Source: Synechococcus sp. WH 8101
GTDB lineage: Bacteria; Cyanobacteriota; Cyanobacteriia; PCC-6307; Cyanobiaceae
DNA: 64,000 nucleotides
Assembly (NCBI RefSeq): GCF_004209775.1
Contig: NZ_CP035914.1
Coordinates: 1,860,001-1,924,000, forward strand
Reading direction: 5' to 3'
The notes beneath the pieces are model-generated. The model was given only the letters and a program-made list of their open reading frames with translations. It was not told the origin of the DNA and did no database searches. The stretch's first letter is position 1; every line of letters begins with the position of its first letter. Positions 39,998 to 57,377 of the stretch are shown piece by piece. The position numbers and the translations under genes were made by a program.

Positions 39998-41619
39998 GGC
40001 AACCACGGCCAGCGCAGACCCAGAGCTTCCGCCGGGTTCATCACCAGAGCATTCAAGGCGCGACCGATCAGCACCTGCGGTTCATCGGCGCGGATCGGGA
40101 TCACCCGGTGCTGGTGGGTGCCGGAAGAATCACTTCCCTTGACCACCCTGCGCCGGATCAGGGAATTGGCGGCCTCCAGGCCACAGACATAAGCCCGCTC
40201 CTGACACAGACCCTTGGCGCCATGCTCGCGGCTGCCCATCCGCACCCAGTCGCCGGCACACACGATCGATGGCACCGCCGTTTCCAGCGGCGGCCGCTGA
40301 CTGAAGCTCCCCGGTGCAAACAGCGACACCGACGCCGGATAGCGCCTCACCTCGGCCTCCAGCACCGTGGCGGTGTGAAAGGCGGGATTAGCCACAGGCA
40401 ACAACTCCCGCATCAACAACGCCACGATCTCCTGATCGCTGAGGGTTGCGATCGCTGAGGCGTTGTAAAAGTCACTGGCAATCACCGATCCCTGGGGCTG
40501 CTCCCCGCCCCATAGGGCTGCTTCCTCCTCCTTCTGCAGCTGATCGAGCATGAAGAAGGTGCCACCGGCCCCCCGCAACGCCTCAAAACGGGAGAACACA
40601 TTGGCGGGATCGGCAACCTCCACATAGGCATCGAGCCACAGACGCACCGAAACCACATCGATGGCACCGAGCTGTCCGGCCTCCACAAGCTCAGGAACGG
40701 CAGCAGCACAGACCGGAGACGCCGCCATCAGCGCGCCCATCCCCTTGGCCCCCACGGCCAGAACCACCGCATCCACCGCTTCAATCAGCCCCTCCTCCCC
40801 CGTTTCAACGGCACGGGTTGCCACCGAAGCAACCGCCGAACCATCGGGCGTGAGGTTCAAGCGCGTAGCCAGCGTGCCCCCCAGCACCCGCAGGCCCTTG
40901 TGCTCGATGAGCCTTCGGGCCAGGGGTGCAATCAAGGCTTCGCCAATGCTTTGGGCCCGGATCCAGCGCACATCGAAGGAATTCTGGTGCGCAAAGGAGT
41001 AGTAGTAAAGAAGCTCCATCGTCACCGCCGCCGAGAGCTCTTCAGGCGGCTTGAACAGTCCCACCAGCAGGGTGGGGCGCAAAAAGTCGTTGATCATCCG
41101 CTCGCTGATTCCGACGCTCCGGAACAACGTCAGCGCATCAAGGTTGTCGTAACGCCGATACACCGCATCACTGCGGTGGAGATCGAGCATCGCGTAGAGA
41201 AGCCCTGTGATGCTCAACCGATCGGCGATTGGCAGGCGTTTGAAGTTGGTGAGCGTTGCTGCCACCTGTCCCAAAGGACTCGGCCACTGGGGCGCATCCC
41301 CGAACACCGGCGCCGAGGCCTCCAGACCATCGGGCGACCAGAAGGCACTGGTGGTGAAGTCCGTGAACACATCGCTGAGGCCGAGCTCAGCGGTGAGGGC
41401 ATTGATGTTGGGGTAGTCCTTCCAGAAACCGCGGGTGCCGGCTTCAAACGGCTTACCGGTGGCGGTGGTGAGGGGCGTGCTGCCGGTGGGATCTGCCATC
41501 CCATCCAGCAGGGTCACACGCACGCCGGCTTCGCCAAGGGCCTTGGCTGCACCCCAGCCAGCCCAGCCGCCGCCAATCACCACCACGTGGGACGCACTGG
41601 ATTGTTCCGTCATCGCCAT
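39994..41619 (-). CDS. FAD-dependent amine-oxidase/phytoene-desaturase-like protein
   Basis: 541 residues. N-terminal dinucleotide fold VVVIGGGWAGWGAAKALGE with the following VTLLDG strand, and a C-terminal FAD motif (PSIVCAGDWVRMGSREHGAKG, then LCQERAYVCGLEAANSL). The arrangement is that of carotenoid desaturases and related flavoproteins, with a substrate domain between (FWKDYPNINAL, DFLRPTLLVGLFKPPEELS). It begins at ATG 41619 inside the stop of a 54-residue gene (TGATG) and is followed by the SDR. Substrate unknown. Confidence 0.82.
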   Translation of the reverse strand: MAMTEQSSASHVVVIGGGWAGWGAAKALGEAGVRVTLLDGMADPTGSTPLTTATGKPFEAGTRGFWKDYPNINALTAELGLSDVFTDFTTSAFWSPDGLEASAPVFGDAPQWPSPLGQVAATLTNFKRLPIADRLSITGLLYAMLDLHRSDAVYRRYDNLDALTLFRSVGISERMINDFLRPTLLVGLFKPPEELSAAVTMELLYYYSFAHQNSFDVRWIRAQSIGEALIAPLARRLIEHKGLRVLGGTLATRLNLTPDGSAVASVATRAVETGEEGLIEAVDAVVLAVGAKGMGALMAASPVCAAAVPELVEAGQLGAIDVVSVRLWLDAYVEVADPANVFSRFEALRGAGGTFFMLDQLQKEEEAALWGGEQPQGSVIASDFYNASAIATLSDQEIVALLMRELLPVANPAFHTATVLEAEVRRYPASVSLFAPGSFSQRPPLETAVPSIVCAGDWVRMGSREHGAKGLCQERAYVCGLEAANSLIRRRVVKGSDSSGTHQHRVIPIRADEPQVLIGRALNALVMNPAEALGLRWPWLP

Positions 41620-41783
41620 CACTCGATCGAAAACTCCCTGCGCAGAGCCCGCGCATCCTGAATGCGCTGCGCTGAGGCCAGCTGGCGCAAACGCATGTTC
41701 AACCAGGCTTTCAGCCGGGTGGACGCCACCGATCGGTTGAGCAGCCGATCACTCGGTTCAGGCTCTCCGAAAGGAATGGTCAT
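41619..41783 (-). CDS. 54-residue protein coupled to the flavoprotein
   Basis: From ATG 41783: MTIPFGEPEPSDRLLNRSV, then a helical basic part (TRLKAWLNMRLRQLASAQRIQ). Its TGA shares a base with the start of the flavoprotein (TGATG), which is the main support for real coding. The frame stays open to 41855. No family recognised. Confidence 0.5.
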   Translation of the reverse strand: MTIPFGEPEPSDRLLNRSVASTRLKAWLNMRLRQLASAQRIQDARALRREFSIE

Positions 41784-41842
41784 CAGAACCAGACGGTGCT
41801 TGAGGCTAGGCAGATCCGTGCGGCGGCCCGAAGGCGGCACGC

Positions 41843-42517
41843 TCAGGGCGTGCAAGGGCCATGGTCGGCCGTCACGATGACCTCATCGCCAAGCTTCACG
41901 GTCTTTAGCAGGGTTTTGAGGATCGGTTCCTTCACATTCAGGCAACCACCGGTGACTTTCTCACCAATGCGGGCCTCGTTGTTGCTGCCGTGGATCGCGA
42001 AGCTGTACCAGCGGAATTTGCCGTCGTATGTGTTGAATCGGAACGGTTGCTTCACGCTGTCGACCGGCTCCAGGCTGATGTAGCCGATGCCGTATTCCCC
42101 CACCTCGCCATCGCCACTGAAATCGATGGCGCTCATATTCTTGAACAACGTCGCCTTGAGCTCGGCTTCGCTCTTGCCCGATTGCTTGATCAGCTGCGGG
42201 GCCATCACGAACTGGTCCTGGCTCAGAATCGCATTCACCTTGAAGCGCCCCAGCGGTGTGTAGCCCTCCTCGAATCGGGTGCCGGCACAGGTGACGCCAT
42301 AACGGCCGTAGCCCACTTGAAAACTGGTGGGCTGCTTGCCACGGACCAACGCGCCTTTGCTCTTGGCCGGGTCGCTCAGATCGATCACAATCCGAATTGG
42401 ACTGTCCAGCGATTCAGCGCTGCCCGAGCCACCGCCTGGCTTTGTGTCATCCCGCCCGCCGCAGCCCGCCAGCAGCAGAGTGAGAGCAAACAACGCAAAG
42501 GGAACACAGCGGCCCAT
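41843..42517 (-). CDS. Lipoprotein with L,D-transpeptidase (YkuD) domain
   Basis: 224 residues. A lipobox (LTLLLAGC, Cys at about 19) is followed by a Gly/Ser linker and a YkuD domain: PIRIVIDLSDPAKSKG, VGYGRYGVTCAGTRFEEG, YTPLGRFKVNAIL, then the catalytic FAIHGSNNEARIGEKVTGGC with the Cys nucleophile in TGGCLNV. It would act on peptidoglycan from a lipid anchor. It is the third YkuD-type protein in the window. Confidence 0.85.
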   Translation of the reverse strand: MGRCVPFALFALTLLLAGCGGRDDTKPGGGSGSAESLDSPIRIVIDLSDPAKSKGALVRGKQPTSFQVGYGRYGVTCAGTRFEEGYTPLGRFKVNAILSQDQFVMAPQLIKQSGKSEAELKATLFKNMSAIDFSGDGEVGEYGIGYISLEPVDSVKQPFRFNTYDGKFRWYSFAIHGSNNEARIGEKVTGGCLNVKEPILKTLLKTVKLGDEVIVTADHGPCTP

Positions 42518-42599
42518 CCCGAAGCAACAAGGTGAGTGGTCTCATGCTGGCCAGGCTCAGCGCGCCTACTCCCTGTGGCAGCTGCCATTCTGGACCCAC

Positions 42600-42626
42600 A
42601 AAAAAGAGGCTCCTTGCGGCAGCCTC
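42600..42626 (-). terminator. Intrinsic terminator of the 42726 gene
   Basis: On the minus strand a gaggct/agcctc stem with a loop of about 9 bases is followed directly by six T. It is 100 bases downstream of the stop of the 88-residue gene and upstream of the lipoprotein gene, so it would separate the two transcripts. Confidence 0.7.
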
Positions 42627-42725
42627 TCGGAGGGTGTGAGGAGAAAAGCCCTGTGAGGAGCTTTCCTATCCACAGTCATAGATCCGAGCCGCCCCTCTGG
42701 GGAAGCCCCCAGATCGAAACAGCCC

Positions 42726-42992
42726 TCAAGGTGCCTTCTGGAATCCAGGGCCAGGCTTGACGGGGATTCCGCCGTTGCAGAAGTTGGAAGCAAACACCTC
42801 CTGGTCCTGCACGGTCCAGTCGGGCTTGTTGGCCTGATACCAACGGATGCTGTCGAGATAACAGGTGTTCCAGCGAGCCGACTGTTCCGCAATCGGCCGC
42901 AGAGACACGGCGATCGACACCGCACTGGCCGTGGCGATGATCCCCAGCACCGGCATCAGATGGGCATTGATCATGTCGCGTGCTTTTGACAT
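42726..42992 (-). CDS. Small membrane-anchored hypothetical protein
   Basis: 88 residues from ATG 42992. An N-terminal membrane helix ([20 protein letters not shown]) anchors a soluble part with two Cys ([14 protein letters not shown] and [13 protein letters not shown]). The frame is open further upstream to 43064, but the helix starts naturally at this ATG. It is divergent from selO. No family recognised. Confidence 0.6.
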
Positions 42993-43057
42993 CGCCAAGA
43001 GGAAACAACTGGTCTCAGTCTCACTCCATAGCATCGACCAACACGGAAGCCGGGCCC

Positions 43058-44758
43058 ATGCCAACGAGAAACGAGAGCAGCACGTTGGTGATCACCGACT
43101 TCAGCCAATTCGCTGAGCGAGTGGATTACTCGCTGCTGGAGGCCCTACGTCCTGATCCTGAGGCCACCAACGATGGCAACGATCACCGGCCTCGCCAGGT
43201 GTGCTCGGGCCATTACGTGCCGGTGACGCCCACCCCCTTGCCTGAGCCCGAGTATGTGGCCCACAGCCCAACGCTCTTCGCCGAGCTGGGGCTCAGCGAC
43301 GCCCTGGCCCACGACGCTCGGTTCCGCCGACTGTTTTCCGGGGATGCCTCGGTGGCCACCAGTCCGATGCGCCCCTGGGGTTGGGCCACGGGCTATGCCC
43401 TCTCGATCTACGGCACCGAATACATCCAGCAGTGTCCTTTCGGCACCGGCAACGGCTACGGCGATGGCAGGGCCCTGTCGATCGTGGAGGGTGTCTACGC
43501 AGGCCGGCGCTGGGAGATGCAGCTCAAGGGTGGCGGCCCCACCCCCTACTGCCGCGGCGCTGACGGGCGTGCAGTGCTGCGCTCCAGTGTGCGTGAGTTC
43601 CTGGCCCAGGAGTTCATGCACGCCCTCGGTGTGCCCAGCTCCCGCTCGCTCAGCCTCTATGTGTCGCGCGCCGAAACCGTGCGCCGGCCCTGGTACAGCC
43701 CCCAGTCACGCTCCTTCGAGCCGGATGTGATGGTCGACAACCCCGCAGCGATCAGCACCCGGGTGGCACCGTCTTTCCTGCGCGTGGGGCAGCTCGAGCT
43801 GTTCGCCCGCCGCGCCCGCAGCCAAGCCCACCCCGAGGCGATGGCCGAGCTGCGGTTGATTGTGGAACACCTAATCGAACGCAACTACAGGCCCGAAATC
43901 GATCCAGCGCTGCCGTTCTCTGAGCAGCTCCTGGAGCTGGCCCGACACTTCCGCGCAAGGCTCACGCGATTGGTCGCCGACTGGATGCGCGTCGGCTACT
44001 GCCAGGGGAACTTCAACAGCGACAACTGCGCCGCTGGGGGCTACACCCTCGACTACGGCCCCTTCGGCTTCTGCGAACTGTTCGATCCGCGCTTCCAACC
44101 CTGGACCGGAGGGGGTGAGCACTTCTCCTTCTTCAACCAGCCAGCGGCGGCGGAAGTGAATTACGGGATGTTCTGGCGATCGCTGCGGCCGCTGCTCGAA
44201 GGCAACCATGGAGCCCTGGCCCAACTTGATGCGATCCACGAAGGCTTCGCCGCCGTGATGCAGCAGGAACTCGAGGCGATGTGGGCCCGCAAGCTCGGTC
44301 TCGCCATCTACGACGAAGAGCTGGTGAGCACACTGCTGCAGCTGCTGATGGCCTCTCGAGCCGACTACACCCGCAGCTTCCGGCTGCTGTCGGCCATTCC
44401 TGAGCAGGCCTCCGATCTGCACCCCAGCTTCTATGTGCAGAGCTCCAGTGAGCTCGATCAGCAGTGGGAGAGCTGGCTGCAGCAATGGCGCACACAACTG
44501 CATGCCAACGGCACCCTGGAGGCAGCATCGGCAGCGATGCGTCGCGTCAACCCCGCCGTCACCTGGCGCGAGTGGCTGATCGCCCCCGCCTACCAGCAAG
44601 CGGAACAGGGAGACCACAGCCTGATCCAGGAGCTGCAGGAGGTGTTCAGCACTCCCTACGACGATCTCTCAGAAGACCGTGCTACCCGTTACGACCGCCT
44701 CAGGCCCCGCGACTTGTTCAATACCGGTGGCCTGTCCCATTACAGCTGTTCGTCGTAG
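43058..44758 (+). CDS. selO: Protein adenylyltransferase SelO (YdiU family)
   Basis: 566 residues. SelO is a pseudokinase that transfers AMP to protein Ser/Thr/Tyr, often in redox responses. Visible features: [20 protein letters not shown] with the active-site Lys and loop, [30 protein letters not shown] and the metal motif TLDYGPFGF. It ends H-Y-S-C-S-S, where the Cys stands at the position held by selenocysteine in animal SelO. ATG 43058 is chosen from the family N-terminus; the frame is open from 42980. Confidence 0.95.
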
Positions 44759-44825
44759 TCGTCTCTTCCAACGTCATCCCCCACCCAGCGACGAGCGCCT
44801 AGGTCAGCGGCAGTATCCCCAGCTG

Positions 44826-44881
44826 GCCAGAAACCTGTCACCACGATCGACTATTCCGCTGATGGGCCGCAGTACAGGCTG
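44826..44881 (-). pseudogene. Probable remnant of a BBE-type flavin-oxidase gene
   Basis: This stretch matches part of the oxidase gene at 51117-51175, with roughly 70 percent identity by eye over about 57 bases and shared blocks such as atcgac, tccgc and gtacaggctg. It sits downstream of porin A exactly as the intact oxidase sits downstream of porin B. No coding function remains. Support comes from position as much as identity, so the match should be confirmed by alignment. Confidence 0.55.
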
Positions 44882-44918
44882 AGTTCAATCAGCCAGCAAC
44901 CAACAACTTTTAGATGAT

Positions 44919-46334
44919 CTAAAAAAGCATGGTGAGCTGCACCATTCCACTCAAAGAATTCGCTTGAGCATCACGTAGACTCACCAGCGGCAGATACGTG
45001 ATAGCAGGCTGAAGATAAAGAGCTGGAGCAAGAGAAATCTGCTTATAGACCTGAAGCATCAATTCATTGGAATTGAACGAATCGGCCAAGAAATCACGTG
45101 TATTAATACGAGCCCAGGAAAGCCCGAGACCAACACTGTCGTCAGGTCGACTCTTCAGGACTCCCTGAGCCGTGAGACCCGCAGTAATCGAAAGACTCAT
45201 CTGATTGGTCGTGGAGGGAGACCATCCCGTACTAATAAAACCATTGATGCCACTGCTATCCACTTCAGGGCGGAAACTCGAAAGCCGCTGATTCAGGAGT
45301 CCATACAAGCCCCAGGCTCCCAGCTCACTAAAGCAAAGCCCCGGATCAAAACGATCGCAAACCACAGATTCTCCTCCCTGGGACCAGACACCGAACCCAA
45401 AAGAGCCAGGCTTGAGGGCATTGCCAGCAACCCAACCGCTGCCGACCTCTGCAATAGCGAAGAGGGGTCCTGTCAGCGAAGGCGTAACCAGACCAGTCTG
45501 AATAGAGGCATCACGAAGACCAGCACGACCATCAAAAACTCCAGCACTGACATAGGCACGCGACAGAAAAAGTTCTGGCAACCATGTCGCAGTGACACCG
45601 AATGCAGAGTTGGTGTAGCCAGGCAAGCGCCCCAGAAGAGTGGGCATCGAGTAAACAGGGGTAAACGCCAAGCTGGTGAGGCTTGAAATCTCGTAACGGG
45701 GATCTCGCGTCACATCCGGACGGTTGATATTGGCGAATACGGTGCTGGCAGATTGCTTCCCTGCGACGAGTCGCAATCTCCTATCGAAAAGGTCCTTGCG
45801 CAGAGCAAATTCAAACAGCTCGGTGCGATCCAGAGGAGGAGCTGCCACAAGGCTGTTGCTGCCCTGGACACTTCCGCTCGGCAACCCTGCATCCGTCGTT
45901 GCATTCACCTGCAAGCCCTGCACCCAAATCCAGGTGTGATCCAGACCAATCGCCTTGCCTAGATCAAGACTCGCTTCCAGCAACAGCTCCTGAGCAGCCT
46001 CATTGGGATTGATCAGACCACCGGAAGGGCCTTCAGAAATCCCTCCAAACCACTGGTCGGTGCCGTTTCCCACCCAAACACCACTAATCCGAAGTGCTCC
46101 ATCAGCAGGTAGCCCTAGCAATCGCCCCAATTCTCCTGTTCCCGGAGCAGTCTGGGAAGCCGCAGGATTACTCGTGGGCGGTAGAACCTGAGCCATGACT
46201 GGCCGGGAAACGGCACCCAGAAGAAGCAAGAGATGCAATAACGAAACACGCTTCAACAGGTATCGGAGATTACGCAACAAACGGAGCCACCGTGAATCCC
46301 TCAAAGCATGACGACCCCAGCCAACCGATCCCAT
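44919..46334 (-). CDS. OprB-like outer-membrane porin, copy A
   Basis: About 471 residues from ATG 46334. A hydrophobic segment (VSLLHLLLLLGAVSRPVMAQ) is the signal peptide, followed by a Pro/Ala/Gly-rich linker and a beta-barrel domain with OprB-family features: GELGRLLGLPADGALRISGVW, ASLDLGKAIGL, KQSASTVFANINRP, GRLPGYTNSAFGV and a final aromatic residue (VQLTMLF). OprB porins admit sugars and other small solutes; the substrate here is inferred to be nucleobase-like from context only. The start is uncertain: a TTG at 46304 is shared with copy B. Paralogue of 52277. Confidence 0.82.
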   Translation of the reverse strand: MGSVGWGRHALRDSRWLRLLRNLRYLLKRVSLLHLLLLLGAVSRPVMAQVLPPTSNPAASQTAPGTGELGRLLGLPADGALRISGVWVGNGTDQWFGGISEGPSGGLINPNEAAQELLLEASLDLGKAIGLDHTWIWVQGLQVNATTDAGLPSGSVQGSNSLVAAPPLDRTELFEFALRKDLFDRRLRLVAGKQSASTVFANINRPDVTRDPRYEISSLTSLAFTPVYSMPTLLGRLPGYTNSAFGVTATWLPELFLSRAYVSAGVFDGRAGLRDASIQTGLVTPSLTGPLFAIAEVGSGWVAGNALKPGSFGFGVWSQGGESVVCDRFDPGLCFSELGAWGLYGLLNQRLSSFRPEVDSSGINGFISTGWSPSTTNQMSLSITAGLTAQGVLKSRPDDSVGLGLSWARINTRDFLADSFNSNELMLQVYKQISLAPALYLQPAITYLPLVSLRDAQANSLSGMVQLTMLF

Positions 46335-46551
46335 GAAGAAACCCTTGAAATATACACCAAAAGCATGATTGCACTGTTTTGCATTGCCGCAGTAGATATT
46401 CAGGGCTTCTAGTTCTTGGCTAAACAGAAACAAATTAGATCGGCCCTACGACTCACCTTGACTTGAGTGCAAATATTTGCGAACGAGACACCCAACGCAG
46501 GGTGACAAGCAGAAAAGTGATTACCAGACTTTATGGACGCAACTTTCTAAA

Positions 46552-47982
46552 ATGACTAGTCTTCTCGCCCGCAATGCCGAGGTTTTGGTCACAATGGATG
46601 GAGAGCGCAGAGAACTGCGAAATGCATCCCTTTATACCGAAGATGGCTGGATCAAGCAGATCGGTCCAGCCGAGGAACTGCCTCAGCATGCCGACACAAT
46701 AATTGATCTCACCGGCCAAATCGTTCTGCCAGGGTTGGTGAATTGTCACCATCACCTCAACCAGACCCTCACACGCAATATCCCAGCAGCCCAGAACAAC
46801 AACCTCTTCGCCTGGCTCAAGGCTCATTACAAGATCTGGGCAGGCACCACACCGGAAGCATCACGTCTCAGCGTGCTTGTGGGCTGCGCAGAGCTCGCCC
46901 TCTCCGGGTGTACAACTGTTTTTGATCATAGCTATGTCTTCAAGAATGGCAACAGCGCGGATGTGATCATCGAGGCTGCGCGTGAATTAGGCATCCGCTT
47001 CCACTGCAGCCGTGGTTCGATGTCCCTCGGGGAATCCAAGGGGGGGCTGCCACCCGATAGCTGCGTGGAGGAGGAGTCGGCAATCCTGGAGGATACGCAA
47101 CGCGTGATCAAGGCTTATCACAACAGCGAACCCGGTGCCATGACGCGGATCGTCGTCGCCCCCTGCTCACCCTTCTCCGTCACTCCTTCCCTGCTGAGAG
47201 ACTCAGCAGATCTGGCTCGCCAGTATGAGGGAGTAGGCCTCCATACCCACCTTTGCGAAACGTTCGACGAAGAGCGCTACACCCTCAACACCTACGCCCA
47301 GCGTCCCGTTGAATTCATGGAAAGCGTGGGTTGGCTGGGGAACGAAGTTTGGTTCGCTCATGCCATACATGTGGATGACCAGGAGATCGGCCAATTCGCC
47401 AGTTGCGGCTGCGGGGTCTCTCACTGTTCCTCCTCGAATATGCGCCTGGCGTCAGGAATTGCGCCCATCAAAAAATACATGGAAGCGGGTGTCAAAGTAG
47501 GGATTGGTGTGGATGGATCCGCTAGCAACGACAGCTCAAACATGATGCTGGAGGTACACACAGCCTTCCTCCTCGCGCGTCTGAAGATGGGGCTACAGCC
47601 ACCAGAAGGGCCCAGCCGCTTCATGAACTTGTCGCAGTCTCACCCAAGAAGGGCCAAGGAATGGATGACGGCTCGCGAAATACTCGAAATCGCCACTCTT
47701 GGGGGAGCCTCTGTAATCGGCAGAGACGACATTGGATCACTGGAAGTTGGCAAGTGCGCCGACTTCTTTACGATAGATCTACATACAGTGGACTATGCAG
47801 GTGCCCTTCAGGATCCAGTCGCTGCAACCGTATTCTGTGCACCACAGAAAGCTTACTTCACCGTTGTCAACGGCAAGGTGATTGTTGATCAAGGCCGACT
47901 GGCTACTGTCGATCTGCCGATGATCATCGAACAGCATAACGCTACTAGCGACAAGCTGATGGGAAATAGCGAGGTTCAATGA
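46552..47982 (+). CDS. 8-oxoguanine deaminase-like amidohydrolase
   Basis: 476 residues of the amidohydrolase family (TIM barrel with metal ion): metal-site opening PGLVNCHHHLNQTLTR, then LSGCTTVFDHSYVF, RGSMSLGESKGGLPPDSC, the substrate region VAPCSPFSVTPSL, HTHLCETFDEE, HCSSSNMRLASGIAP and the catalytic Asp in GVDGSASNDSS. This ordered set agrees with the 8-oxoguanine-deaminase subgroup, which overlaps with proteins annotated as hydroxydechloroatrazine hydrolases. It would convert 8-oxoguanine to urate. ATG 46552 is preferred over 46477. The MFS gene starts 1 base after its stop. Confidence 0.85.
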   Translation: MTSLLARNAEVLVTMDGERRELRNASLYTEDGWIKQIGPAEELPQHADTIIDLTGQIVLPGLVNCHHHLNQTLTRNIPAAQNNNLFAWLKAHYKIWAGTTPEASRLSVLVGCAELALSGCTTVFDHSYVFKNGNSADVIIEAARELGIRFHCSRGSMSLGESKGGLPPDSCVEEESAILEDTQRVIKAYHNSEPGAMTRIVVAPCSPFSVTPSLLRDSADLARQYEGVGLHTHLCETFDEERYTLNTYAQRPVEFMESVGWLGNEVWFAHAIHVDDQEIGQFASCGCGVSHCSSSNMRLASGIAPIKKYMEAGVKVGIGVDGSASNDSSNMMLEVHTAFLLARLKMGLQPPEGPSRFMNLSQSHPRRAKEWMTAREILEIATLGGASVIGRDDIGSLEVGKCADFFTIDLHTVDYAGALQDPVAATVFCAPQKAYFTVVNGKVIVDQGRLATVDLPMIIEQHNATSDKLMGNSEVQ

Positions 47983-47983
47983 G

Positions 47984-49213
47984 ATGAACGGATGGATTCG
48001 CTGGGGTATAACCCAGCTCTTCTTCGTCTTAAGCGTGATCTGCAATATCAGTTTCGCGATTTCATCACCCAACCTAATCAGTTCTCTAGGCCTAGAGGAG
48101 GCTCAGCTCGGCGAACTGGGTGGTATTTACTTTGCCTCCTTCTCGATAGCGCTGCTCATTATCGGAGGTCTTATGTCCACGATCGAGCCACGGCTTTTGC
48201 TGGGCGGTTCCGCGGTTGTGGCAGCGATCGGAGCCCTGATTCTGTCTGCTGCCAATGGATTCGAGGGAGCCCTGATCGCAAGGCTGCTGATGGGCGTCGG
48301 ACTGTCGACCGCTTTTGTTGGGGTGATCACCTACGTGAGCAAGGAATTCCCCCAGAACTTCGCCTTCATGGCCGCCCTGAGCAATGCCATCGCCAACCTC
48401 TGCTCGGCGCTGCTCGCCATCACTAATTCGGTGATTCCAATTCTTGCCGGCTTCCGAGCCCCCTTCCGGCTTCTGGCGCCGCTGATGCTGTTCACCGCTG
48501 GTCTGCTGTTTGTGGTTCTGAGAGAGCGCAAGAGCAGCAGCGAAAGTGCTTCCATTCCAGCCGAGGGAAGTCCTCAGGCCACGCTATCGGCAGCGGAGCT
48601 ACCCACTGCAATCTGCAAAATTCTCACAACTCCTCAGTTCTGGTATGTCGCTCTCTACTTCGGTGGACTTTTCGGATCGTTTCTGGCTTATGCCGATCTC
48701 TGGAACATCCCCTACCAGCTCAAGGTATTCGGGCACACCATCCAACATGCCTCGCTCCTGAATTCCGCCTTCCCCATCGGCATGTCTGTCGGCTCGCTGA
48801 TCGGTGGTGCTTGGGCGAACCGGGCAGGCTTTCTGATACCGATCCGAGTTTTTTCGATCGTTGCGCTGGTTACTGAAGCCCTGCTGTTTGGCAACGCTCT
48901 TCCTGAAGCAGGAGCTGGGTTTGCCTTCTTCCTGGTAGGCATTGGCTGCAGCGCCGCATCCCTGGCATTGGCCGCTCTTCCCGAGCACCTGGAGGCGATT
49001 CTTGTCCCCATTGCCACCACCTTCGTGATGACCTTCACGTATCTACTGAGTGCCCTCATTCAGGTCCTTGCCGGGCAGCCAGGTGGAAAGTCAGGAATCA
49101 CGACCTTCACGAGTTACCAGGGAAGCATCGCCACGATCGTGGTTCCGGTCGCCATCGCGGCGGCCTCCTCGTTCCTGATCCGGCGGCGAACCAGAGCAAC
49201 TGCCGCAATCTGA
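47984..49213 (+). CDS. Major-facilitator transporter
   Basis: 409 residues with 12 predicted helices and a central cytoplasmic loop (RERKSSSESASIPAEGSPQ). Family features include the helix 2-3 segment and RLLMGVGLSTAFVGVITYVSKEF. No drug-exporter or sugar-specific motif is clear. It starts 1 base after the deaminase stop, so it is very probably its partner, importing the purine substrate or exporting the product. Confidence 0.85.
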   Translation: MNGWIRWGITQLFFVLSVICNISFAISSPNLISSLGLEEAQLGELGGIYFASFSIALLIIGGLMSTIEPRLLLGGSAVVAAIGALILSAANGFEGALIARLLMGVGLSTAFVGVITYVSKEFPQNFAFMAALSNAIANLCSALLAITNSVIPILAGFRAPFRLLAPLMLFTAGLLFVVLRERKSSSESASIPAEGSPQATLSAAELPTAICKILTTPQFWYVALYFGGLFGSFLAYADLWNIPYQLKVFGHTIQHASLLNSAFPIGMSVGSLIGGAWANRAGFLIPIRVFSIVALVTEALLFGNALPEAGAGFAFFLVGIGCSAASLALAALPEHLEAILVPIATTFVMTFTYLLSALIQVLAGQPGGKSGITTFTSYQGSIATIVVPVAIAAASSFLIRRRTRATAAI

Positions 49214-49406
49214 ATCTATCCATGTTTTTCTTGGACAAGTCCAGCCAGGGACACCTTTCTTCAGCTATAAAGAACAAGCTGATTTACACTGAAAGAGACG
49301 TGAAACCACCTAGGCTTATCATAGGCAGACATTCAAAATGAGGCAAACCAATCCAATGAATACCTGCAGACTCCAACAAGAATCAAGACAACCCTACGGG
49401 TTCAAA

Positions 49407-50120
49407 ATGCTTCAAAAACTTTACGCAACAGGCCTCACACTGCTGATCCTTTTTTCAGCCTGCCTACCGGCTTCTGCTCTGGCATCGACAAATCTGGAGC
49501 AACAACTAAGCAACAAAAACGGAATCGCCCACTTGCTGCCGTCATTTCGTGATACCAAGGGGCGCTTTAAAGTTCCTGATCCCACTGAAAATGCTCAAGC
49601 TTTTCTCACAGCACAACAAACCCTCACCATCCTGATTGATCAAGCCGAAAGCCAGGCACTCAACCGCCTCAATCCAACTGAGTTGGAAAAGCGGCTCGCC
49701 AAGGCGCCCACACGCCTACCAGCGCGATGGAAACGCGCAGAAATTGCAGTGCGGACCGATGGTCGAACCCAGAGCTGCGCAGATGACGGACCAAATTGTG
49801 CTGCCTACGGTTCCGACTCGTTTTTAAACACTCTGGAACCAGTTGAGGGCCTTGGAGAAAGCTTCTACCGCAGCGTGAATGCGCGTGGGGAGGCACAGGC
49901 TCTTGTCTATGTGCAGCCAACAGCAGTACCCAGCGTCAGCAGACTCCTTCTTGCTGCGGCCAATTCTGCTGGGGTTTGGATTCCCGCTGCATACGCTTTA
50001 GGGCCAGCAGGAGGAGAGGCTTTCATGATTGTCAACAATTGCTTGGACCTTGCACAGGAAACCAATGGAGTACTCAAGCCTTCAGCGATGCTCGTTGCCG
50101 CTTTGCAATGGGTGGATTAA
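49407..50120 (+). CDS. Secreted 237-residue protein of unknown family, copy A
   Basis: Signal peptide MLQKLYATGLTLLILFSACLP, cleaved after ASALAS. The mature protein has a helical first half (TENAQAFLTAQQTLTILIDQ, NPTELEKRLAKAP) and a second half with RTDGRTQSCADDGPNCAAYGS (paired Cys), GESFYRSVNARGEAQALVYV and MIVNNCLDLAQE. No recognised domain. ATG 49356 or 49338 would add a further 17 to 23 residues. By eye it differs from copy B at about 16 positions, mostly in the first half. Confidence 0.75.
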   Translation: MLQKLYATGLTLLILFSACLPASALASTNLEQQLSNKNGIAHLLPSFRDTKGRFKVPDPTENAQAFLTAQQTLTILIDQAESQALNRLNPTELEKRLAKAPTRLPARWKRAEIAVRTDGRTQSCADDGPNCAAYGSDSFLNTLEPVEGLGESFYRSVNARGEAQALVYVQPTAVPSVSRLLLAAANSAGVWIPAAYALGPAGGEAFMIVNNCLDLAQETNGVLKPSAMLVAALQWVD

Positions 50121-50259
50121 AGGCGGGACAGGAAGAAACCATTGGAGCGCTAATACAACAAAAATAACAACAAAATCCAAACGCAGAATCACAGCACTCC
50201 CAATGCGAGCACCCAGAGAAAGCATTCGAATAGTTCGCATAAAAGCGACTGAACCAATG
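50121..50259 (-). pseudogene. Remnant of an ABM-domain membrane-protein gene
   Basis: These bases align with the end of the intact gene at 54447-54590: the blocks tggattaa, aataacaacaaaa, tccaa-cgcag, cacccag/cgcccag and agcattc-a are shared in order. Only the last 45 or so codons remain, including WFSRFYAN matching WLSRLYAN, and the frame is not maintained. It lies downstream of secreted protein A, in the same place as the intact gene after copy B. Confidence 0.7.
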
Positions 50260-50429
50260 CAAAACAATACCCTGCGCTGATCGCAGCATGATTTCCATAT
50301 CATCATGTCAACTTCATAACACTCTCTCACGGACCAACACAGTGTCAATTACGCCATGTCTTTGCGCTTGAAAAACCAACCAAGGTGATCGCGATGGCGA
50401 TGTTCTGATTCGCCATAGGGCAAGTCAGC

Positions 50430-50639
50430 TCAGCGGGCCTGGCCAAACGCCGCTATCTCTGCCGGTGTCGGATTCATCGCGATTGCCATCAACAGCAGGT
50501 CGGCAGCCAGCAGATGATCCCCCTCAGCAAGCAGTAAGCGTCTCAACAGAATCACATCGCCGTAGTCAGCAGCAGCGTTTCCACTGAGCAAACTCCGGGC
50601 CGTACCTCGGGCAACCACCAACTGAAGAGACATGCTCAT
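50430..50639 (-). CDS. Possible small hypothetical protein
   Basis: An open frame of 69 residues (MSMSLQLVVARGTARSLLSG, LLRRLLLAEGDHLLAADLLLM, AIAMNPTPAEIAAFGQ). The composition is plausible for a helical soluble protein, but it sits in the decayed part of copy A and has no counterpart in copy B. No family recognised. Confidence 0.35.
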   Translation of the reverse strand: MSMSLQLVVARGTARSLLSGNAAADYGDVILLRRLLLAEGDHLLAADLLLMAIAMNPTPAEIAAFGQAR

Positions 50640-50734
50640 GGCTTCAAGATGGCACCGCCAATGATTCCAGTGATGAGACAGCAGATTCTCAGCTGATTTG
50701 CCAGCCAGGCCCGGGCCGCTACGCCATCAGTGAT

Positions 50735-50839
50735 TGATAGGCCTCTGTCACCCGCCGGAAGGCCTCTGCCGGCGATCACTGCTTCGTTGGTCCGTGCAGC
50801 GTTGGTCCGTGCGGGTGCGCCGGCTGCTGTCAGCTCCGG
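50735..50839 (-). pseudogene. Internally deleted remnant of a J-domain gene
   Basis: Two blocks of the J-domain gene at 55865-56656 are joined here: tgataggcctctgtcacccg onward (55881-55917) and ctctgccggcgatcactgct onward (56049-56120). The join falls exactly on an 8-base repeat ctctgccg (50764-50771) that occurs in the intact gene at 55910 and 56049, removing 139 bases and shifting the frame. This is what is expected from slippage or recombination between short direct repeats. Confidence 0.85.
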
Positions 50840-50888
50840 TGCAGCTGGCAGAGTTCCTGATCCAGCAATGCCACCTAGAGAACAGCGA

Positions 50889-52220
50889 TTAAGAAGGGGG
50901 ATCGAGAGACGGCAGCAACCCTTCGGGATCCCACTGTTTCTTCATCTGCCGCAGCTGGGGCAGCTCAGAGCCGTAAGCAAGCTCCAACTCCCGCTGGTAG
51001 CGGACCGTGCTCGGATGCCGCTCCACCAGGTAGACGTGACAAGCCAACGACTCCAATGCATCGAAGACCTCATCGGCCCAACGACAGACGGCCTGCTGAT
51101 GCAGAGCATCTCCCGCCGACCAGAAGCCGGAGATCACAATCGACCACTCCGCATGACGGCCCCGGTACAGGCTGCTGGCCATCGGCTGATCGGCGACGGC
51201 GCCTCCGATGTGCTGGAGATCAATGCGGCAGAGACGATTCGGGGCCTTCCGCATCGCCTCCTCAAGGCGAGGCGCCAACGCATGACTCAGGCCTGAAGGC
51301 ACACTGACGGTGTAGATCCAGGAGCGCAGGCGGCGAAAGCGATCAGGCTCCACAGGTGGTTCAGGCGGCAGAACACCGTTGCGATCAGGGAGATTGAAAT
51401 CGGGCAGCCACTCCTGGCCCGCCACATGGTCATGCCAGCACTCCAGACCCTCGCGCAGAAAGGCCGGCAGCAATGCCTCATCGCCCTCCTGGAGCACCAC
51501 GTAACGCATCAGCTGTGCTTGCTCCTGGTCGGGAGGGACACCAAGCACGAACGAGCAGGCAATCTGCCGCGGCAAGCTCTCGGCACAGTTAAGGGCATCC
51601 ACAAGGAACGGGAGGGCATTGAGCTGTCGGATCCCATGCAGCGGGCGACGGGGATAGGTGCGCAAGGTCGTCTCCGTGATCACCGCCAGAAAAGGCGCCG
51701 CGCCGCGCAGCAGTCGCCAAACCTCCGATCCATCAGCATCTTCGGCTCGAATCTCGAATCGGTCCCCATTGGCACGCACTCCACGCATCGCCACCACGCA
51801 ATCGAGGGTGAGTCCGAAACTGCGGCTGAGGTGACCGATGCCACCCATGGTCAACAACCCGAAACCCGGCGTGGCGTGCGTCCCCACAGGCACCATCCGG
51901 TCGTGGGGCTCTAAGGCCCGCAGAACAGCCCCAACACCGCAGCCCCCCTGCACCGTCACCAAATCTCCACTGACCGTGACGCCCCTCAAATGAGCCGCCA
52001 GGTCAAGCATCAGGGCACCGTCACCACTGCAGAAGCGACTGTGGCCGCCACTGCGCACCCGCAGAGGTCGCTTCTGTGCGCAGGCTTGTCGAACGAACGC
52101 CGCAACCTCCTGCTCATCGCGAGGCTGGGCGATGGAGGCCGGATGGGCTGCAGCAGCATCGCCATTGAACACTGCGGCCAGCGCGGTCTCATAGGCCGTT
52201 TCGCCTTGGTGAAGCTCCAT
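50889..52220 (-). CDS. FAD-linked oxidase, berberine-bridge-enzyme type
   Basis: 443 residues. N-terminal FAD domain with the covalent-His motif RVRSGGHSRF, LMLDLAAHLRGV, TVQGGCGVG and TMGGIGHLSRSFGLTLDCVV; C-terminal substrate domain ending LRQMKKQWDPEGLLP, as in the BBE family. The second covalent attachment (a Cys in the GxC loop) is not seen; the segment reads VGTHATPGFG, so linkage is probably by His only. No signal peptide. Substrate unknown. It lies upstream of porin B on the minus strand, and a fragment of a second copy lies near 44830. Confidence 0.85.
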   Translation of the reverse strand: MELHQGETAYETALAAVFNGDAAAAHPASIAQPRDEQEVAAFVRQACAQKRPLRVRSGGHSRFCSGDGALMLDLAAHLRGVTVSGDLVTVQGGCGVGAVLRALEPHDRMVPVGTHATPGFGLLTMGGIGHLSRSFGLTLDCVVAMRGVRANGDRFEIRAEDADGSEVWRLLRGAAPFLAVITETTLRTYPRRPLHGIRQLNALPFLVDALNCAESLPRQIACSFVLGVPPDQEQAQLMRYVVLQEGDEALLPAFLREGLECWHDHVAGQEWLPDFNLPDRNGVLPPEPPVEPDRFRRLRSWIYTVSVPSGLSHALAPRLEEAMRKAPNRLCRIDLQHIGGAVADQPMASSLYRGRHAEWSIVISGFWSAGDALHQQAVCRWADEVFDALESLACHVYLVERHPSTVRYQRELELAYGSELPQLRQMKKQWDPEGLLPSLDPPS

Positions 52221-52276
52221 CGAGCGCTGCCGTCAGTACCGCCGACCTCTCGATAGCAAGACCACCACGATTGCCA

Positions 52277-53698
52277 TCAAAACAACATGGTGAGCTGCAG
52301 CAGTCCGCTCAAAGAGTCATTGCCTGCATCTTTGTTACCAACACGGGGCAGCAGCGTGAGGGTTGGCTGAAGGAAGAGGGCCTCGGCCAGAGCGATCTGG
52401 GCATATCCCTGCAGCATCAATTCATGAGAGTTAAAAGCCTCGGAGAGAAAGCCGCGGGTGTTGAGGCGAGCCCATGAAAGACCCACGCCAAGGCTGTCGT
52501 TCGGACGCGCCTCAAGAGGGCCCTGCAACGTGAATCCTCCGGTGATCGACGCATTCATCTGATTGGTGATGGATGGCGACCAACCAGCGCTGAAGAATGC
52601 ATTGATGCCGCTGCTGTCTTGGTCCGCTCGAAAACTGGAGAGACGCTGATCCAATAGCACATACAGTCCCCAGGCGCCCAAGTCGCTGATGCACTGCTGA
52701 GGGTCAAGAGGATTGCACAGCAACGACTCACCTCCCTGAGACCAGACCCCCACACCAAAGGAGCCGGGCTTACGGGCATCGCCAACGACCCAGCCGCTTC
52801 CCACCTCCATGATGTTGAACAGTGGACCGCTGAGCGACGGGGACGTCAACCCCGTCTGCACGGAGGCAGCACCAAGTCCTCCCCGTCCATCAAACACACC
52901 GGCACTCAAGTACGAGCGGTTGTCAAACCATCCCGGCTGAAGGGTGAACCTCAGGCCAAGCGCTGAATTGGTGTAGCCGGGCAGCCGACCCAGAAGCGTC
53001 GGCATGGAATACACCGGTGTGAAGGCCAGACTGGTGAGGCTGGAGACTTCGTAGCGGGGATCATCGGTGGCGTCGGGGCGATTCATATTGGCGAACACAG
53101 TGCTGGCCGACTGCTTGCCGGCAACAACACGCAGGCGCCCCTCAAAAAAGTCCTTGCGGATGGCGTACTCGAACAGCTCGGTGCGGTCCAGGGGTGGCGC
53201 AGCCACAAGGCTGTTGCTGCCCTGGACACTGCCACTGGCCCTTCCGGCGTTGGTCGTGGCATTCACCTGCAGTCCCTGAACCCAGATCCAGGTGTTCTCC
53301 AGACCAATTGCATTGCCCAGATCCAGGCTTGCCTCCACAAGCAGTTCCTGCGCTTCATCGGTGGACCTGGAGAGTCCTCCGGACCACTGCCCCGTGGCGT
53401 TCCCCACCCAAACACCACTAATCCGAAGCGCTCCATCAGCAGGTAGCCCCAGCAATCGCCCCAATTCACCCGTTCCCGGAGCAGCCTGAGAAGCTGCAGG
53501 ATTACTCGTTGGCGGATGAACCTGAGCCATAACTGGCCCAGGAACGGCACCCAGCACAAACAAGAGATTCAATAACGAAACGCGCTCAAACAGGTATCGG
53601 AGGTTGCGCAACAAACGGAGCCACCGTGAATCCTTCAAAGCATGATGGCATGCAAAACGAGGAAAACCAGTCCAATGAATACTTGCGGACTCCAACAA
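52277..53698 (-). CDS. OprB-like outer-membrane porin, copy B
   Basis: 473 residues from the first ATG (53698); a TTG at 53638 is the start shared with copy A. Signal segment VSLLNLLFVLGAVPGPVMAQ, the same linker and barrel motifs as copy A (GELGRLLGLPADGALRISGVW, KQSASTVFANMNRP, GRLPGYTNSALGL), and the same terminal VQ/LQLTMLF. Differences are concentrated in predicted loops, for example around residue 270 and just after the N-terminal linker. Its 5' end is divergent from and close to secreted protein B. Confidence 0.82.
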   Translation of the reverse strand: MLESASIHWTGFPRFACHHALKDSRWLRLLRNLRYLFERVSLLNLLFVLGAVPGPVMAQVHPPTSNPAASQAAPGTGELGRLLGLPADGALRISGVWVGNATGQWSGGLSRSTDEAQELLVEASLDLGNAIGLENTWIWVQGLQVNATTNAGRASGSVQGSNSLVAAPPLDRTELFEYAIRKDFFEGRLRVVAGKQSASTVFANMNRPDATDDPRYEVSSLTSLAFTPVYSMPTLLGRLPGYTNSALGLRFTLQPGWFDNRSYLSAGVFDGRGGLGAASVQTGLTSPSLSGPLFNIMEVGSGWVVGDARKPGSFGVGVWSQGGESLLCNPLDPQQCISDLGAWGLYVLLDQRLSSFRADQDSSGINAFFSAGWSPSITNQMNASITGGFTLQGPLEARPNDSLGVGLSWARLNTRGFLSEAFNSHELMLQGYAQIALAEALFLQPTLTLLPRVGNKDAGNDSLSGLLQLTMLF

Positions 53699-53725
53699 GA
53701 ATCAAGACAATCCTACGGGCTCAAA

Positions 53726-54439
53726 ATGCTCCAAAAACTTTACGCAATAGGCCTCACCTTTCTGATCCTTTTTTCAGCCTGCCTACCGGCCTCTGGTCTC
53801 GCATCGACAGGCCTGGAGCAACAACTATGCAACAAGAACGGAATCGCCAATTTGTTGCCGTCATTCCGTGATACCAATGGGCACTTCAAGGTTCCTGATC
53901 CCACTGAAAATGCTCAAGCTTTTCTCACAGCACAACAAATCCTCACCATCCTGATTGATCAAGCCGAAAGCCAGGCACTCAACCGCCTCAAGCCAACGGA
54001 GTTAAAAAAGCGGCTCGCCAAGGCGCCCACCCGCCTAGCAGCACGATGGAAACGCGCAGAAATTGCAGTGCGGACCGATGGGCGAACACAGAGCTGCGCA
54101 GATGACGGACCGAATTGTGCTGCCTACGGTTCCGACTCGTTTTTAAACACTCTGGAACCGGTTGAGGGCCTTGGAGAAAGCTTCTACCGCAGCGTGAATG
54201 CGCAAGGAGAGGCACAGGCTCTTGTCTATGTACAGCCAACAGCAGTTCCCAGCGTCAGCAGACTCCTTCTTGCTGCGGCCAATTCTGCTGGGGCTTGGAT
54301 TCCCGCTGCATACTCTTTAGGGCCAGCAGGAGGAGAGGCTTTCATGATTGTCAACAATTGCTTGGACCTTGCACAGGAAACCAATGGAGCGCTCAAGCCT
54401 TCAGCAATGCTCGTTGCCGCTTTACAATGGGTGGATTAA
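53726..54439 (+). CDS. Secreted 237-residue protein of unknown family, copy B
   Basis: Same architecture as copy A: signal peptide (LYAIGLTFLILFSACLP), helical first half, paired Cys SCADDGPNCAAYG and late NNCLDLAQE. The second half is nearly identical to copy A, while the first half carries most substitutions, including an extra Cys (EQQLCNKNG). It is divergent from porin B and converges with the ABM-domain gene 7 bases away. Confidence 0.75.
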   Translation: MLQKLYAIGLTFLILFSACLPASGLASTGLEQQLCNKNGIANLLPSFRDTNGHFKVPDPTENAQAFLTAQQILTILIDQAESQALNRLKPTELKKRLAKAPTRLAARWKRAEIAVRTDGRTQSCADDGPNCAAYGSDSFLNTLEPVEGLGESFYRSVNAQGEAQALVYVQPTAVPSVSRLLLAAANSAGAWIPAAYSLGPAGGEAFMIVNNCLDLAQETNGALKPSAMLVAALQWVD

Positions 54440-54446
54440 GAGTGGA

Positions 54447-55097
54447 TCAGAAAGAGAATACTGGAGAGCTAAAGATAACAAGAAATAACAACAAAAATCC
54501 AAGCGCAGAAGCACAGTACAACCAACTCGAGCGCCCAGAAGAAGCATTCAACCAGTTTGCGTATAGGCGACTGAGCCAAGGTACTAACAACCAGCCAGTG
54601 ACTGCGACTGTGATCGCATTACTGATCAACATATTAAGCGGTAATGGCATCCGACCCAGAGTAGTGCGACCCAACACCATCAAGATCATCACTGATGGAT
54701 AGAGCGCCAACCAGACCAGAAGATTGACTTTCCAGGCCGGTGGCTTTTGACCACTCCGAGAGGTAATCCACTGGTCGAAAGACTGAGGTTCGACAAGCGA
54801 GCGATAGCGATAGCCAATTGCCTCTTCAGCATGAACCAAAAGCCGCCTTCTGACACGACTATCAAGCCAGGCAAGGCAGTTTTCTAAACTCGTAAATCGA
54901 ATTCGAGCAACGCAGCGCGTCAAACCCTGCTGATCACTCGGCTCGTAGTCAAGCTCTTGACCAAGATAGCCTTCAAAGAGACTCGCTGCCCGATCAAGCT
55001 CTTCTTGAAGCTTGGCAAAAGCACTCACCTGCGAGGGAGGCAATTCATTGTGAAAAGTATAAACAAACTGCTCATCAGAGCCCGTCTGATTACCCAT
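54447..55097 (-). CDS. ABM-domain protein with membrane helices
   Basis: 216 residues. Residues 1-100 look like a ferredoxin-like antibiotic-biosynthesis-monooxygenase domain (YTFHNELPPSQVSAFAKLQEE, FTSLENCLAWLDSRVRRRLL). The C-terminal half has two or three hydrophobic helices (VNLLVWLALYPSVMILMVLG, NMLISNAITVAVTGWLLVPW, WLYCASALGFLLLFLVIF). Similar fusions occur in bacteria and are thought to handle small hydrophobic molecules. A decayed copy lies at 50121. Confidence 0.7.
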   Translation of the reverse strand: MGNQTGSDEQFVYTFHNELPPSQVSAFAKLQEELDRAASLFEGYLGQELDYEPSDQQGLTRCVARIRFTSLENCLAWLDSRVRRRLLVHAEEAIGYRYRSLVEPQSFDQWITSRSGQKPPAWKVNLLVWLALYPSVMILMVLGRTTLGRMPLPLNMLISNAITVAVTGWLLVPWLSRLYANWLNASSGRSSWLYCASALGFLLLFLVIFSSPVFSF

Positions 55098-55122
55098 CGA
55101 ACCAACCTATAAATTGAACGCA

Positions 55123-55602
55123 TCAATAGCGAGCACCATCAGGCAACAAGCGAAATTCCTTCCAAATAGCACAAGCCTCCTCCTGAAGGATTTGATTCAA
55201 GCGAATCTCTCGCTCGCCCCTTGCTTTTTGCATGTCAGCATTAATCGCCTCATCAGAAAACAGATCACTATAATCAGACCAAGATGCGGCATAAAAAACG
55301 GTTCTAATTCCAGCCCAATAAGCCGTGGCATAGCACATCGGGCAACACTCACAACTCGTGTACATCACACAACCAGAAAGATCCCAGGTTCCGAGAGCCT
55401 TGCAAGCAGCACGAATTGCATTCACCTCTGCATGAGCACTTGGATCAAGATCTTTCACCACACTATTCCCTGCCGCAGCGATCACCTCACCATCCTTGGC
55501 GATCACAGCACCAAAGGGACCCCCGGTCTTTTCAATAACTCCGGCATTGCGCATTAAGCGAATCGCTTGCCGCATCATTTTCAGATCCAACTCAGTAGCC
55601 AT
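55123..55602 (-). CDS. Guanine-deaminase-like nucleobase deaminase
   Basis: 159 residues of the CDA/guanine-deaminase fold. The first zinc motif is intact (AHAEVNAIRAACKALG, His with catalytic Glu); the second is TSCECCPMCYATAYWAG, with a Cys where the family usually has Pro (CEPCPMC), so all metal ligands remain. The C-terminus with YYS/DEAI and RLLPDGARY resembles the Bacillus-type domain-swapped guanine deaminase. It would convert guanine to xanthine. ATG 55602 is preferred over upstream ATGs. Only copy B of the island has this gene. Confidence 0.82.
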   Translation of the reverse strand: MATELDLKMMRQAIRLMRNAGVIEKTGGPFGAVIAKDGEVIAAAGNSVVKDLDPSAHAEVNAIRAACKALGTWDLSGCVMYTSCECCPMCYATAYWAGIRTVFYAASWSDYSDLFSDEAINADMQKARGEREIRLNQILQEEACAIWKEFRLLPDGARY

Positions 55603-55864
55603 CGCCAAGAATCGACTCATTGCATGATGACCATTCAGGCACTGAGTGGCAACCCCTCGACCCATTGCATCGCGACCAAAGAGCTCGATGTCATCGGGCC
55701 ATAAAAAAATTATCAGAACATGCCATCAAGTCATCAGTGAAGCATAAATTTATAAACGGCTTTAAACCTTTCTGCAACTCTGCAACCTCCTCGCGCCAGA
55801 GGACAGAGCCAGAAAGCCAGCAGCCCTCGTTCCATTGATTATCAGTGAATAGAGTTCGCCACCC

Positions 55865-56656
55865 TCAGGCCACCAGGCGCTGATAGGCCTCTGTCACCCG
55901 CCGGAAGGCCTCTGCCGAGCCACCCATATCCGGATGGTGCTGTTTCACCAGGCGCCGAAACGCCTTCTTGATCGCCTCCTGAGACGCACCGGCCTGGAGG
56001 CCCAGCACCGCCAGAGCATCCGAACTGGAGGTCCAGGCCTGGGCGTTGCTCTGCCGGCGATCACTGCTGCGTTGGTCCGTGCTGCGTTGATCCGTGCGGG
56101 TGCGCCGGCTGCTGTTCGGACGCAGCCGCTGCCGTAGCTCCGCCACCACCCGGGCCGGATCCTCATCCAGCCACTCGCTTGCCCGCACGCCATAGAGCGC
56201 GAAGGCGGCCAGCACGGCCATGCCCTTTTTGGTGGCCTTGCGCCCCACCGCCGACAGCAGATCGGTGCCCAGTCCGCTCACCAGCCGGTCAAGGCGCTGC
56301 TGGAGACTGAGCTGCGGGTGGAAGCTGCTGCGGTTGAGTCGATCCACCAGAGCCTCCAGGCCGCTCTGACGCAGGTCAGTCCAGCCCGCTTGCTGGGCCA
56401 TGGCCTCGCCCCAGCGACGCACCTGATCAGCACTCACCCGCGGCGGCGGACTGGCGGAAGGCTCCTGCCATCGCGGCGGCTGCACCCACTGCTGACGTCT
56501 CTGCCGCTCAAGCTCCCGCTGCAGCCGTCGCACCTCCCGGCGCAGGGCCTCATTCTCCTCGAGCAATGCCGTGAGATTGACGGTGACACGGGGATCAGCC
56601 CCCGGGTCCTGAGCGCACGATCGAGTGGTCGACCACTGGCGCGGATCAAATCCCAT
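55865..56656 (-). CDS. C-terminal J-domain protein
   Basis: 263 residues. An Arg/Gln/Leu-rich coiled coil lies near residues 30-60 (NEALRREVRRLQRELERQRR), a helical middle contains LRQSGLEALVDRLNRSS, a Ser/Arg/Gln-rich linker follows, and the C-terminus is a J domain (VLGLQAGASQEAIKKAFRRL, with the HPD motif in KQHHPDMGGS). J proteins stimulate Hsp70; the coiled coil may set the partner. A deleted fragment of a second copy is at 50735. It marks the right border of the duplicated unit. Confidence 0.85.
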   Translation of the reverse strand: MGFDPRQWSTTRSCAQDPGADPRVTVNLTALLEENEALRREVRRLQRELERQRRQQWVQPPRWQEPSASPPPRVSADQVRRWGEAMAQQAGWTDLRQSGLEALVDRLNRSSFHPQLSLQQRLDRLVSGLGTDLLSAVGRKATKKGMAVLAAFALYGVRASEWLDEDPARVVAELRQRLRPNSSRRTRTDQRSTDQRSSDRRQSNAQAWTSSSDALAVLGLQAGASQEAIKKAFRRLVKQHHPDMGGSAEAFRRVTEAYQRLVA

Positions 56657-56665
56657 GGAATGCGC

Positions 56666-57331
56666 TCACCAGGGCAGCAGCTCACCATTGGAATGCCAGA
56701 AGCTGCCGCTGGTTTCCAGGGTGAGTGCATCGATGCGCGCCAGCAACCCCTCGACCGCCTGCTCCGGAGCAATGCCGTTGGGGTTGAAATTGATCATGCG
56801 GGTGCGCACGAGCCCCGGATGCAGAATCGCCACAGCGATACCCCGGGGTTGGAGGTCGATCGCCAGCGACTTGCCGGCCATGGTCAAGGCCACCTTCGAC
56901 ATCCGGTAGCCATAGGAGCCCCCGGAGCTGTTATCGGCGATCGAACCCATGCGACTGGTCATCAACGCAAGCTTGGCCCCCCGCGGCATCTGATCCAGCA
57001 GCGCCCGCGCCAGGAGCAACGGCGCCAGGGCATTCAGCTCGAACTGACGGCGGATCCCCTCCGGATCGAGATCCTCCAGCCCCATCGACTGCAGGATGCC
57101 GGCATTGAGAATCACCACATCGAGACTCTGTCCCTGCAGGCGAGCCACCAGCTCGGCGGGCGCCGAAGCAGCAGCAAGATCCAGCCCCGCTTCAATTCGC
57201 ACCCCCAGGGCCTCCAGCTCCGGCGAGGGCTCGCGGCAGACCGCAATCACCTGGTCACCTCGTGCCTGCAACTGCCGGCAATACTCCAGGCCGATACCCC
57301 GGTTGGCGCCGGTGACCAGAACTGTTGCCAT
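56666..57331 (-). CDS. Short-chain dehydrogenase/reductase
   Basis: 221 residues. Rossmann motif VTGANRGIGLEYCRQL, NAG strand (VVILNAGILQ) and active site GSYGYRMSKVAL (YxxxK with upstream Ser). The short length and sequence resemble the C-factor/sniffer-type SDRs. Substrate unknown. It is 9 bases from the J-domain gene on the same strand. Confidence 0.9.
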   Translation of the reverse strand: MATVLVTGANRGIGLEYCRQLQARGDQVIAVCREPSPELEALGVRIEAGLDLAAASAPAELVARLQGQSLDVVILNAGILQSMGLEDLDPEGIRRQFELNALAPLLLARALLDQMPRGAKLALMTSRMGSIADNSSGGSYGYRMSKVALTMAGKSLAIDLQPRGIAVAILHPGLVRTRMINFNPNGIAPEQAVEGLLARIDALTLETSGSFWHSNGELLPW

Positions 57332-57377
57332 GACGCTTCCCGCCCGTTCCGTCCCATCCTGACGGCAGCGCAGCCCA

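Follow-up and report, generated by a model that had tools for sequence, protein, structure and literature searches.

The window analyzed here is a stretch of 64,000 nucleotides (positions 1860001-1924000) of the 2.63 Mb single-contig genome of Synechococcus sp. WH 8101. It contains two related sets of genes in adjacent units, which we call copy A and copy B (Table 1). In each copy, the gene for an OprB-family porin is divergent from the gene for a secreted protein. In copy A, a 3.0 kb cassette with genes for a deaminase and a transporter of the major facilitator superfamily (MFS) lies between these two genes. The secreted protein had no match in Pfam, NCBIfam or PHROG, and it is present in 6 of the 31 genomes of the genus, i.e., in five other congeners. 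Its predicted structure had a mean pLDDT of 39, and the model was set aside. The start of the secreted protein had initially been placed at 49338; most likely it is at 49407 in copy A and at 53726 in copy B, where the relatives start.

Table 1. Features of copy A, copy B and the cassette, with positions in the window.
Feature	Position	Strand	Evidence and remarks
FAD-linked oxidase (FADox) remnant	44812..44881	-	In-frame stop; blastn to 51105-51174, 71%, E=7e-8; tblastn E=3e-8
Porin A (OprB family)	44919..46304	-	PF04966, E=1e-19; TTG start common to B
Cassette, probably inserted	46312..49329		3,018 bp; every part of A without counterpart in B
Cassette left end, non-coding	46312..46551		44.6% GC; upstream of porin A (-) and deaminase (+)
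Probable 8-oxoguanine deaminase (amidohydrolase superfamily)	46552..47982	+	476 aa; NCBIfam NF006055; PDB 3hpa
MFS transporter	47984..49213	+	409 aa; PF07690, E=7e-21; start 1 nt past deaminase stop
Cassette right end, non-coding	49214..49329		116 bp
Secreted protein A	49407..50120	+	237 aa; no known family; start as in relatives
hyp54447 3'-end remnant	50121..50257	-	tblastn E=3e-10; 78% nt over 160 bp
DnaJ-like gene 3'-end remnant	50723..50830	-	90% and 96% matches to 55869-55917 and 56049-56115
FADox, intact	50889..52220	-	PF01565; inside apparently imported tract
Porin B, mosaic	52277..53638	-	5' ~220 nt A-like, rest G009-like; breakpoint 53402-53420
Empty site, copy B	53646..53648		TGG, sole bases of B outside both homology blocks
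Secreted protein B	53726..54439	+	93% aa identical to A
hyp54447	54447..55097	-	No family; intact counterpart of remnant in A
Guanine-deaminase-like protein (cytidine-deaminase fold)	55123..55665	-	PF00383; PDB 1wkq/1tiy guanine deaminase, E=2e-34
DnaJ-like gene	55865..56656	-	3' part is right edge of duplicated unit

We aligned the two copies at base level (44601-50800 for A and 51801-55900 for B). The left block of homology joined 44921-46311 of copy A to 52279-53645 of copy B, and the right block joined 49330-50257 to 53649-54579. Without 46312-49329, copy A aligned with copy B end to end, with a single gap of 3 bases. This alignment confirmed the claim of the initial annotation that the deaminase/MFS pair sits at the divergent porin/secreted-protein junction of copy A. 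The ends of the flanks, which had been put near 46310 and 49330, were correct to within a few bases (46311 and 49330), and the interval, described as holding only the deaminase and MFS genes, has exactly two genes in its 3,018 bp. The homology between the flanks was not limited to coding parts, so the observation withstood the refutation proposed in the initial annotation. The aligned region took in the whole intergenic stretch (87 bp in B; in A, 7 bp on the left and 77 bp on the right) and ran on for ~140 bp beyond the secreted gene. There was no match at E≤1e-3 between copy A and five control stretches of the window of equal size.

There are traces of other copy B genes on both sides of copy A. 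The 70-bp FADox remnant lies on the left side of porin A. Secreted gene A is followed on its right by the hyp54447 remnant, then by two DnaJ-like 3' fragments, and then by the intact FADox. In all, there were five colinear A-side matches to copy B in adjacent units, the pattern of a tandem duplication. The simplest reading of these matches is that a unit of about 5.2 kb, FADox-porin-secreted-hyp-guanine deaminase-DnaJ', was duplicated in tandem. Read in this way, copy A is the left unit, decayed to the porin, the secreted gene and three remnants, and it is in this unit that the cassette sits. An origin of the duplicate in assembly or chance has practically nothing to recommend it: we found no points in its favor, A and B differ by 9% or more, the remnants have decayed, and there is a G009-like tract with a breakpoint of its own.

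A and B, initially treated as two simple copies, are better described as a decayed tandem copy and a copy in which FADox and most of porin B seem to have been imported later from a different lineage. Positions 50862-53537 had 95.7% nucleotide identity to the congener G009, and the genes around the tract (hyp-deaminase, SDR, DnaJ) were 66-75% identical to G009. The A and B porins were 83-90% identical per window over the first ~220 nt and about 68% identical beyond, because a G009-like import appears to have replaced the rest of porin B. Informative sites in porin B were predominantly A-like on the 5' side of the breakpoint (70 versus 6) and G009-like on the 3' side (334 versus 11), and none of 2000 permutations gave a breakpoint as good. 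From 50862 to the breakpoint, the tract is ~2.5 kb. It consists of FADox and the final 1.1 kb of the porin B gene, and these would have been replaced by the G009-like allele in a separate, recent event. Gene conversion between A and B had been considered for an ~89% tract and was set aside, as duplication plus a G009-like import covers both the pattern and the remnants.

The deaminase of the cassette scored 610 bits with the full-length HMM NF006055 (curated cut-off, 532) and matched PDB 3hpa with E=1e-161. Residues H66, H68, Q71, H233, E236, H270 and D321 were invariant in the family alignment; assigned by motif after PMC13054789, these are the metal HxH, H, E, H and D and the catalytic Q. 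Judging from the family, the substrate is most likely 8-oxoguanine or a related purine (8-oxoguanine to urate). The MFS protein scored 74.9 bits with PF07690 (Pfam gathering threshold, 33.4) and reached no subfamily cut-off in NCBIfam. Because the MFS gene begins 1 nt after the deaminase stop, the two genes are likely to be an operon. The MFS protein, again going by its family, probably moves the substrate or the product of the deaminase.

The closest relatives of the deaminase were found in other genera of the family, for which more than 400 genomes were available. They were 85-91% identical in amino acid sequence, and each had an MFS gene directly downstream. In G073, the deaminase was 91% and the adjacent MFS protein 77% identical; in G256, these values were 85% and 66%. 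In G353, the deaminase was 87% identical, and the frame of the adjacent MFS gene (L053 8171-9290) was disrupted, with stretches missing. The DNA similarity to these three genomes was limited to the two genes (~46550-49187), and the outer parts of the cassette (240 bp and 116 bp) had no match in the three loci. In a tree of 24 deaminases, the enzyme from the window and those of G073, G353 and G256 grouped together (98/96). Alphaproteobacterial enzymes were placed further out, and a branch of Pseudomonas and filamentous-cyanobacterial enzymes stood apart. These data suggest that the unit was acquired horizontally, with another picocyanobacterial lineage as its source. The nearest known DNA was just ~73-76% identical, and thus no recent donor is seen. 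The pair in G073 also adjoins an OprB porin (~45% identical to porin A; L045 4118-6818), tail to tail, unlike the arrangement in the window.

The initial annotation had left both an insertion into A and a deletion from B open and had pointed to close relatives as the place to compare the junction. In three congeners (G016, G030, G025), the secreted gene is divergent from an OprB porin gene, with ~140-175 bp between the likely starts and no cassette. The other 30 congeners had no close relative of the deaminase, only distant homologues with 34% identity or less. By parsimony, the cassette-free pairs and the lack of a close congeneric deaminase together argue for insertion into A. The intergenic sequence of A and B had no detectable similarity to that of the three congeneric pairs, and the empty site is therefore polarised by gene order and not by bases. 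It is very unlikely that a single ancestral locus already had the cassette, that both were duplicated together, and that copy B later lost the cassette by a precise deletion. The exact fit of the flanks of A and B is expected from a deletion too, but this history calls for three events (insertion, duplication and near-exact excision), and the cassette is absent from all three congeners that have the pair. In addition, the imported tract ends at 53402-53420, short of 53646, so the import could not have removed the cassette. We therefore rejected deletion from B on the evidence from the congeners; of the two alternatives, it is insertion that the congeners and the kin in other genera support. 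Because copy B has the divergent control region intact, the unit would have arrived in copy A after the duplication.

The locus varied among the relatives. In G009 and G026, the porin and the secreted gene are at separate places, and the locus is therefore unstable. There, the gene order is FADox-porin-hyp-guanine deaminase, and the secreted gene is at another place, where its neighbors are a PF00383 deaminase and an MFS gene. Porins at the matching locus in G019 and G017 were broken (L157 6353-7305 and L158 7367-8395), by internal deletion and by an apparent fusion of the 3' part of the porin with the PF00383 deaminase, indicating that the locus decays repeatedly.

The breakpoints of the cassette had been described as sharp and free of insertion-sequence ends, and this was borne out. 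We found no terminal inverted repeats or target duplication above shuffled expectation at the cassette ends, and no transposase, integrase or recombinase. It is very unlikely that a mobile element, be it an IS, an integron, a phage or a plasmid, carries the cassette. The sharp ends and the occurrence of the cassette in only one genome of the genus would fit such an element, but the interval has no space for a transposase or integrase, there was no phage match, and plasmid matches were only partial and distant (64-72%). There are no tRNA genes in 40000-60000, so the cassette does not resemble a tRNA-targeted island. Entry without transposon marks could have occurred by illegitimate or flank-assisted recombination of DNA that had been taken up. 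The GC content of the cassette (55-57%) is between that of the locus (53%) and that of the window (62%) and is little informative.

The possibility that the cassette's left end contains an RNA element was rejected; an Rfam search gave no match at E≤1. This end does include an 86-bp non-coding match (46332-46415) to C1:1210416-1210501 (L002 1501-1586; 74%, E about 2e-8). Searches of the genus and of 400 genomes of the family, and of viral contigs with an exact pattern, gave no further occurrence. The match at C1:1210416 is upstream of a small ribbon-helix-helix-like frame and near genes for an orange carotenoid protein and a cNMP-binding regulator, and so far leaves the cassette unexplained.

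An extension compatible with insertion is that the PF00383 deaminase and MFS genes that relatives have near the secreted gene gave way here to the deaminase-MFS unit, which would make the locus a plug-in site for taking up and deaminating nucleobases. The relatives' MFS gene is at the matching locus in four of five (G030, G025, G009, G026), and in three of them (G025, G009, G026) the PF00383 deaminase is the immediate neighbor of the secreted gene. The window genome has neither. A search of it for that PF00383 deaminase found nothing, though four congeners match at E<1e-100, and a search with the cassette MFS found no other close MFS. The cassette MFS and the MFS of the relatives are 33-36% identical along their entire length, and the next MFS of the window genome is far less similar. 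On the other side, the loss and the gain may have happened at unconnected times, the deaminases differ in fold and perhaps in substrate, and G030 also lacks the PF00383 deaminase. We regard the replacement as a possibility to be held tentatively. It is somewhat more doubtful that the secreted gene, together with the porin where linked, marks a slot for exchanging unrelated deaminase/MFS pairs, with an enzyme of the cytidine-deaminase fold and its MFS exchanged here for an 8-oxoguanine deaminase of the amidohydrolase fold and its MFS, and that the secreted protein may act as a partner when nucleobases or oxidised purines are taken up. If the replacement is real, an unstudied secreted protein becomes a possible partner in purine uptake.

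Insertion into copy A could also have changed the expression of the porin. The cassette lies within the 84-bp control region between the divergent genes, at a distance of 7 bp from the conserved TTG start of porin A. The old control region would have remained with secreted gene A, and because the region that is shared in B went with that gene, porin A would now be read from the 240-bp left end of the cassette itself. There is an alternative in-frame ATG at 46334, within the end of the cassette, that could even be the start of porin A.

Taken together, we consider it very probable that a horizontally acquired deaminase-MFS unit was inserted into copy A after the duplication, and that copy B received a separate G009-like import. 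The case is one of ordinary gene gain, and mostly of ordinary genome evolution, unusually well ordered in time: a duplication, the decay of one copy, the entry of a foreign operon into the redundant copy, and the import of an allele into the other copy. It provides a clean, ordered record of change at a nutrient locus in a small picocyanobacterial genome.

Tandem duplication followed by decay and by import of homologous DNA is an ordinary genome process. The colinear remnants, the mosaic gene and the sharp breakpoint are like those of other such cases; the difference here is that the duplicate also appears to have taken a foreign operon into its control region. In the open-licence literature that we searched, no publication on this locus was found. 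Marine picocyanobacteria have patchy clusters of genes for organic nutrients (eCAGs), among which organic-nitrogen sets are known (PMC10119275), and the cassette is like these in being a small, patchily distributed set for what would be uptake and breakdown of organic nitrogen. A word search of the main text of that paper turned up neither a deaminase set nor a porin set. Among the amidohydrolases of guanine-deaminase type are 8-oxoguanine deaminase, NdmH (N2,N2-dimethylguanine hydrolases) and AtzB (PMC13054789, PMC12828455), and the enzyme from the window belongs with them in the guanine-deaminase-like part of the amidohydrolase superfamily. NdmH is marked by a C-Q..N plus N signature; at the place of C-Q..N, the window enzyme has C-S-P-F-S (residues 205-209, as in 3hpa), a comparison made by motif position alone. 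It is like 8-oxoguanine deaminase (NF006055 / PRK08203; 3hpa, 7ww2) in its score above the cut-off and in its invariant metal and catalytic positions, and within that family it sits in the alphaproteobacterial/picocyanobacterial set, apart from the Pseudomonas branch.
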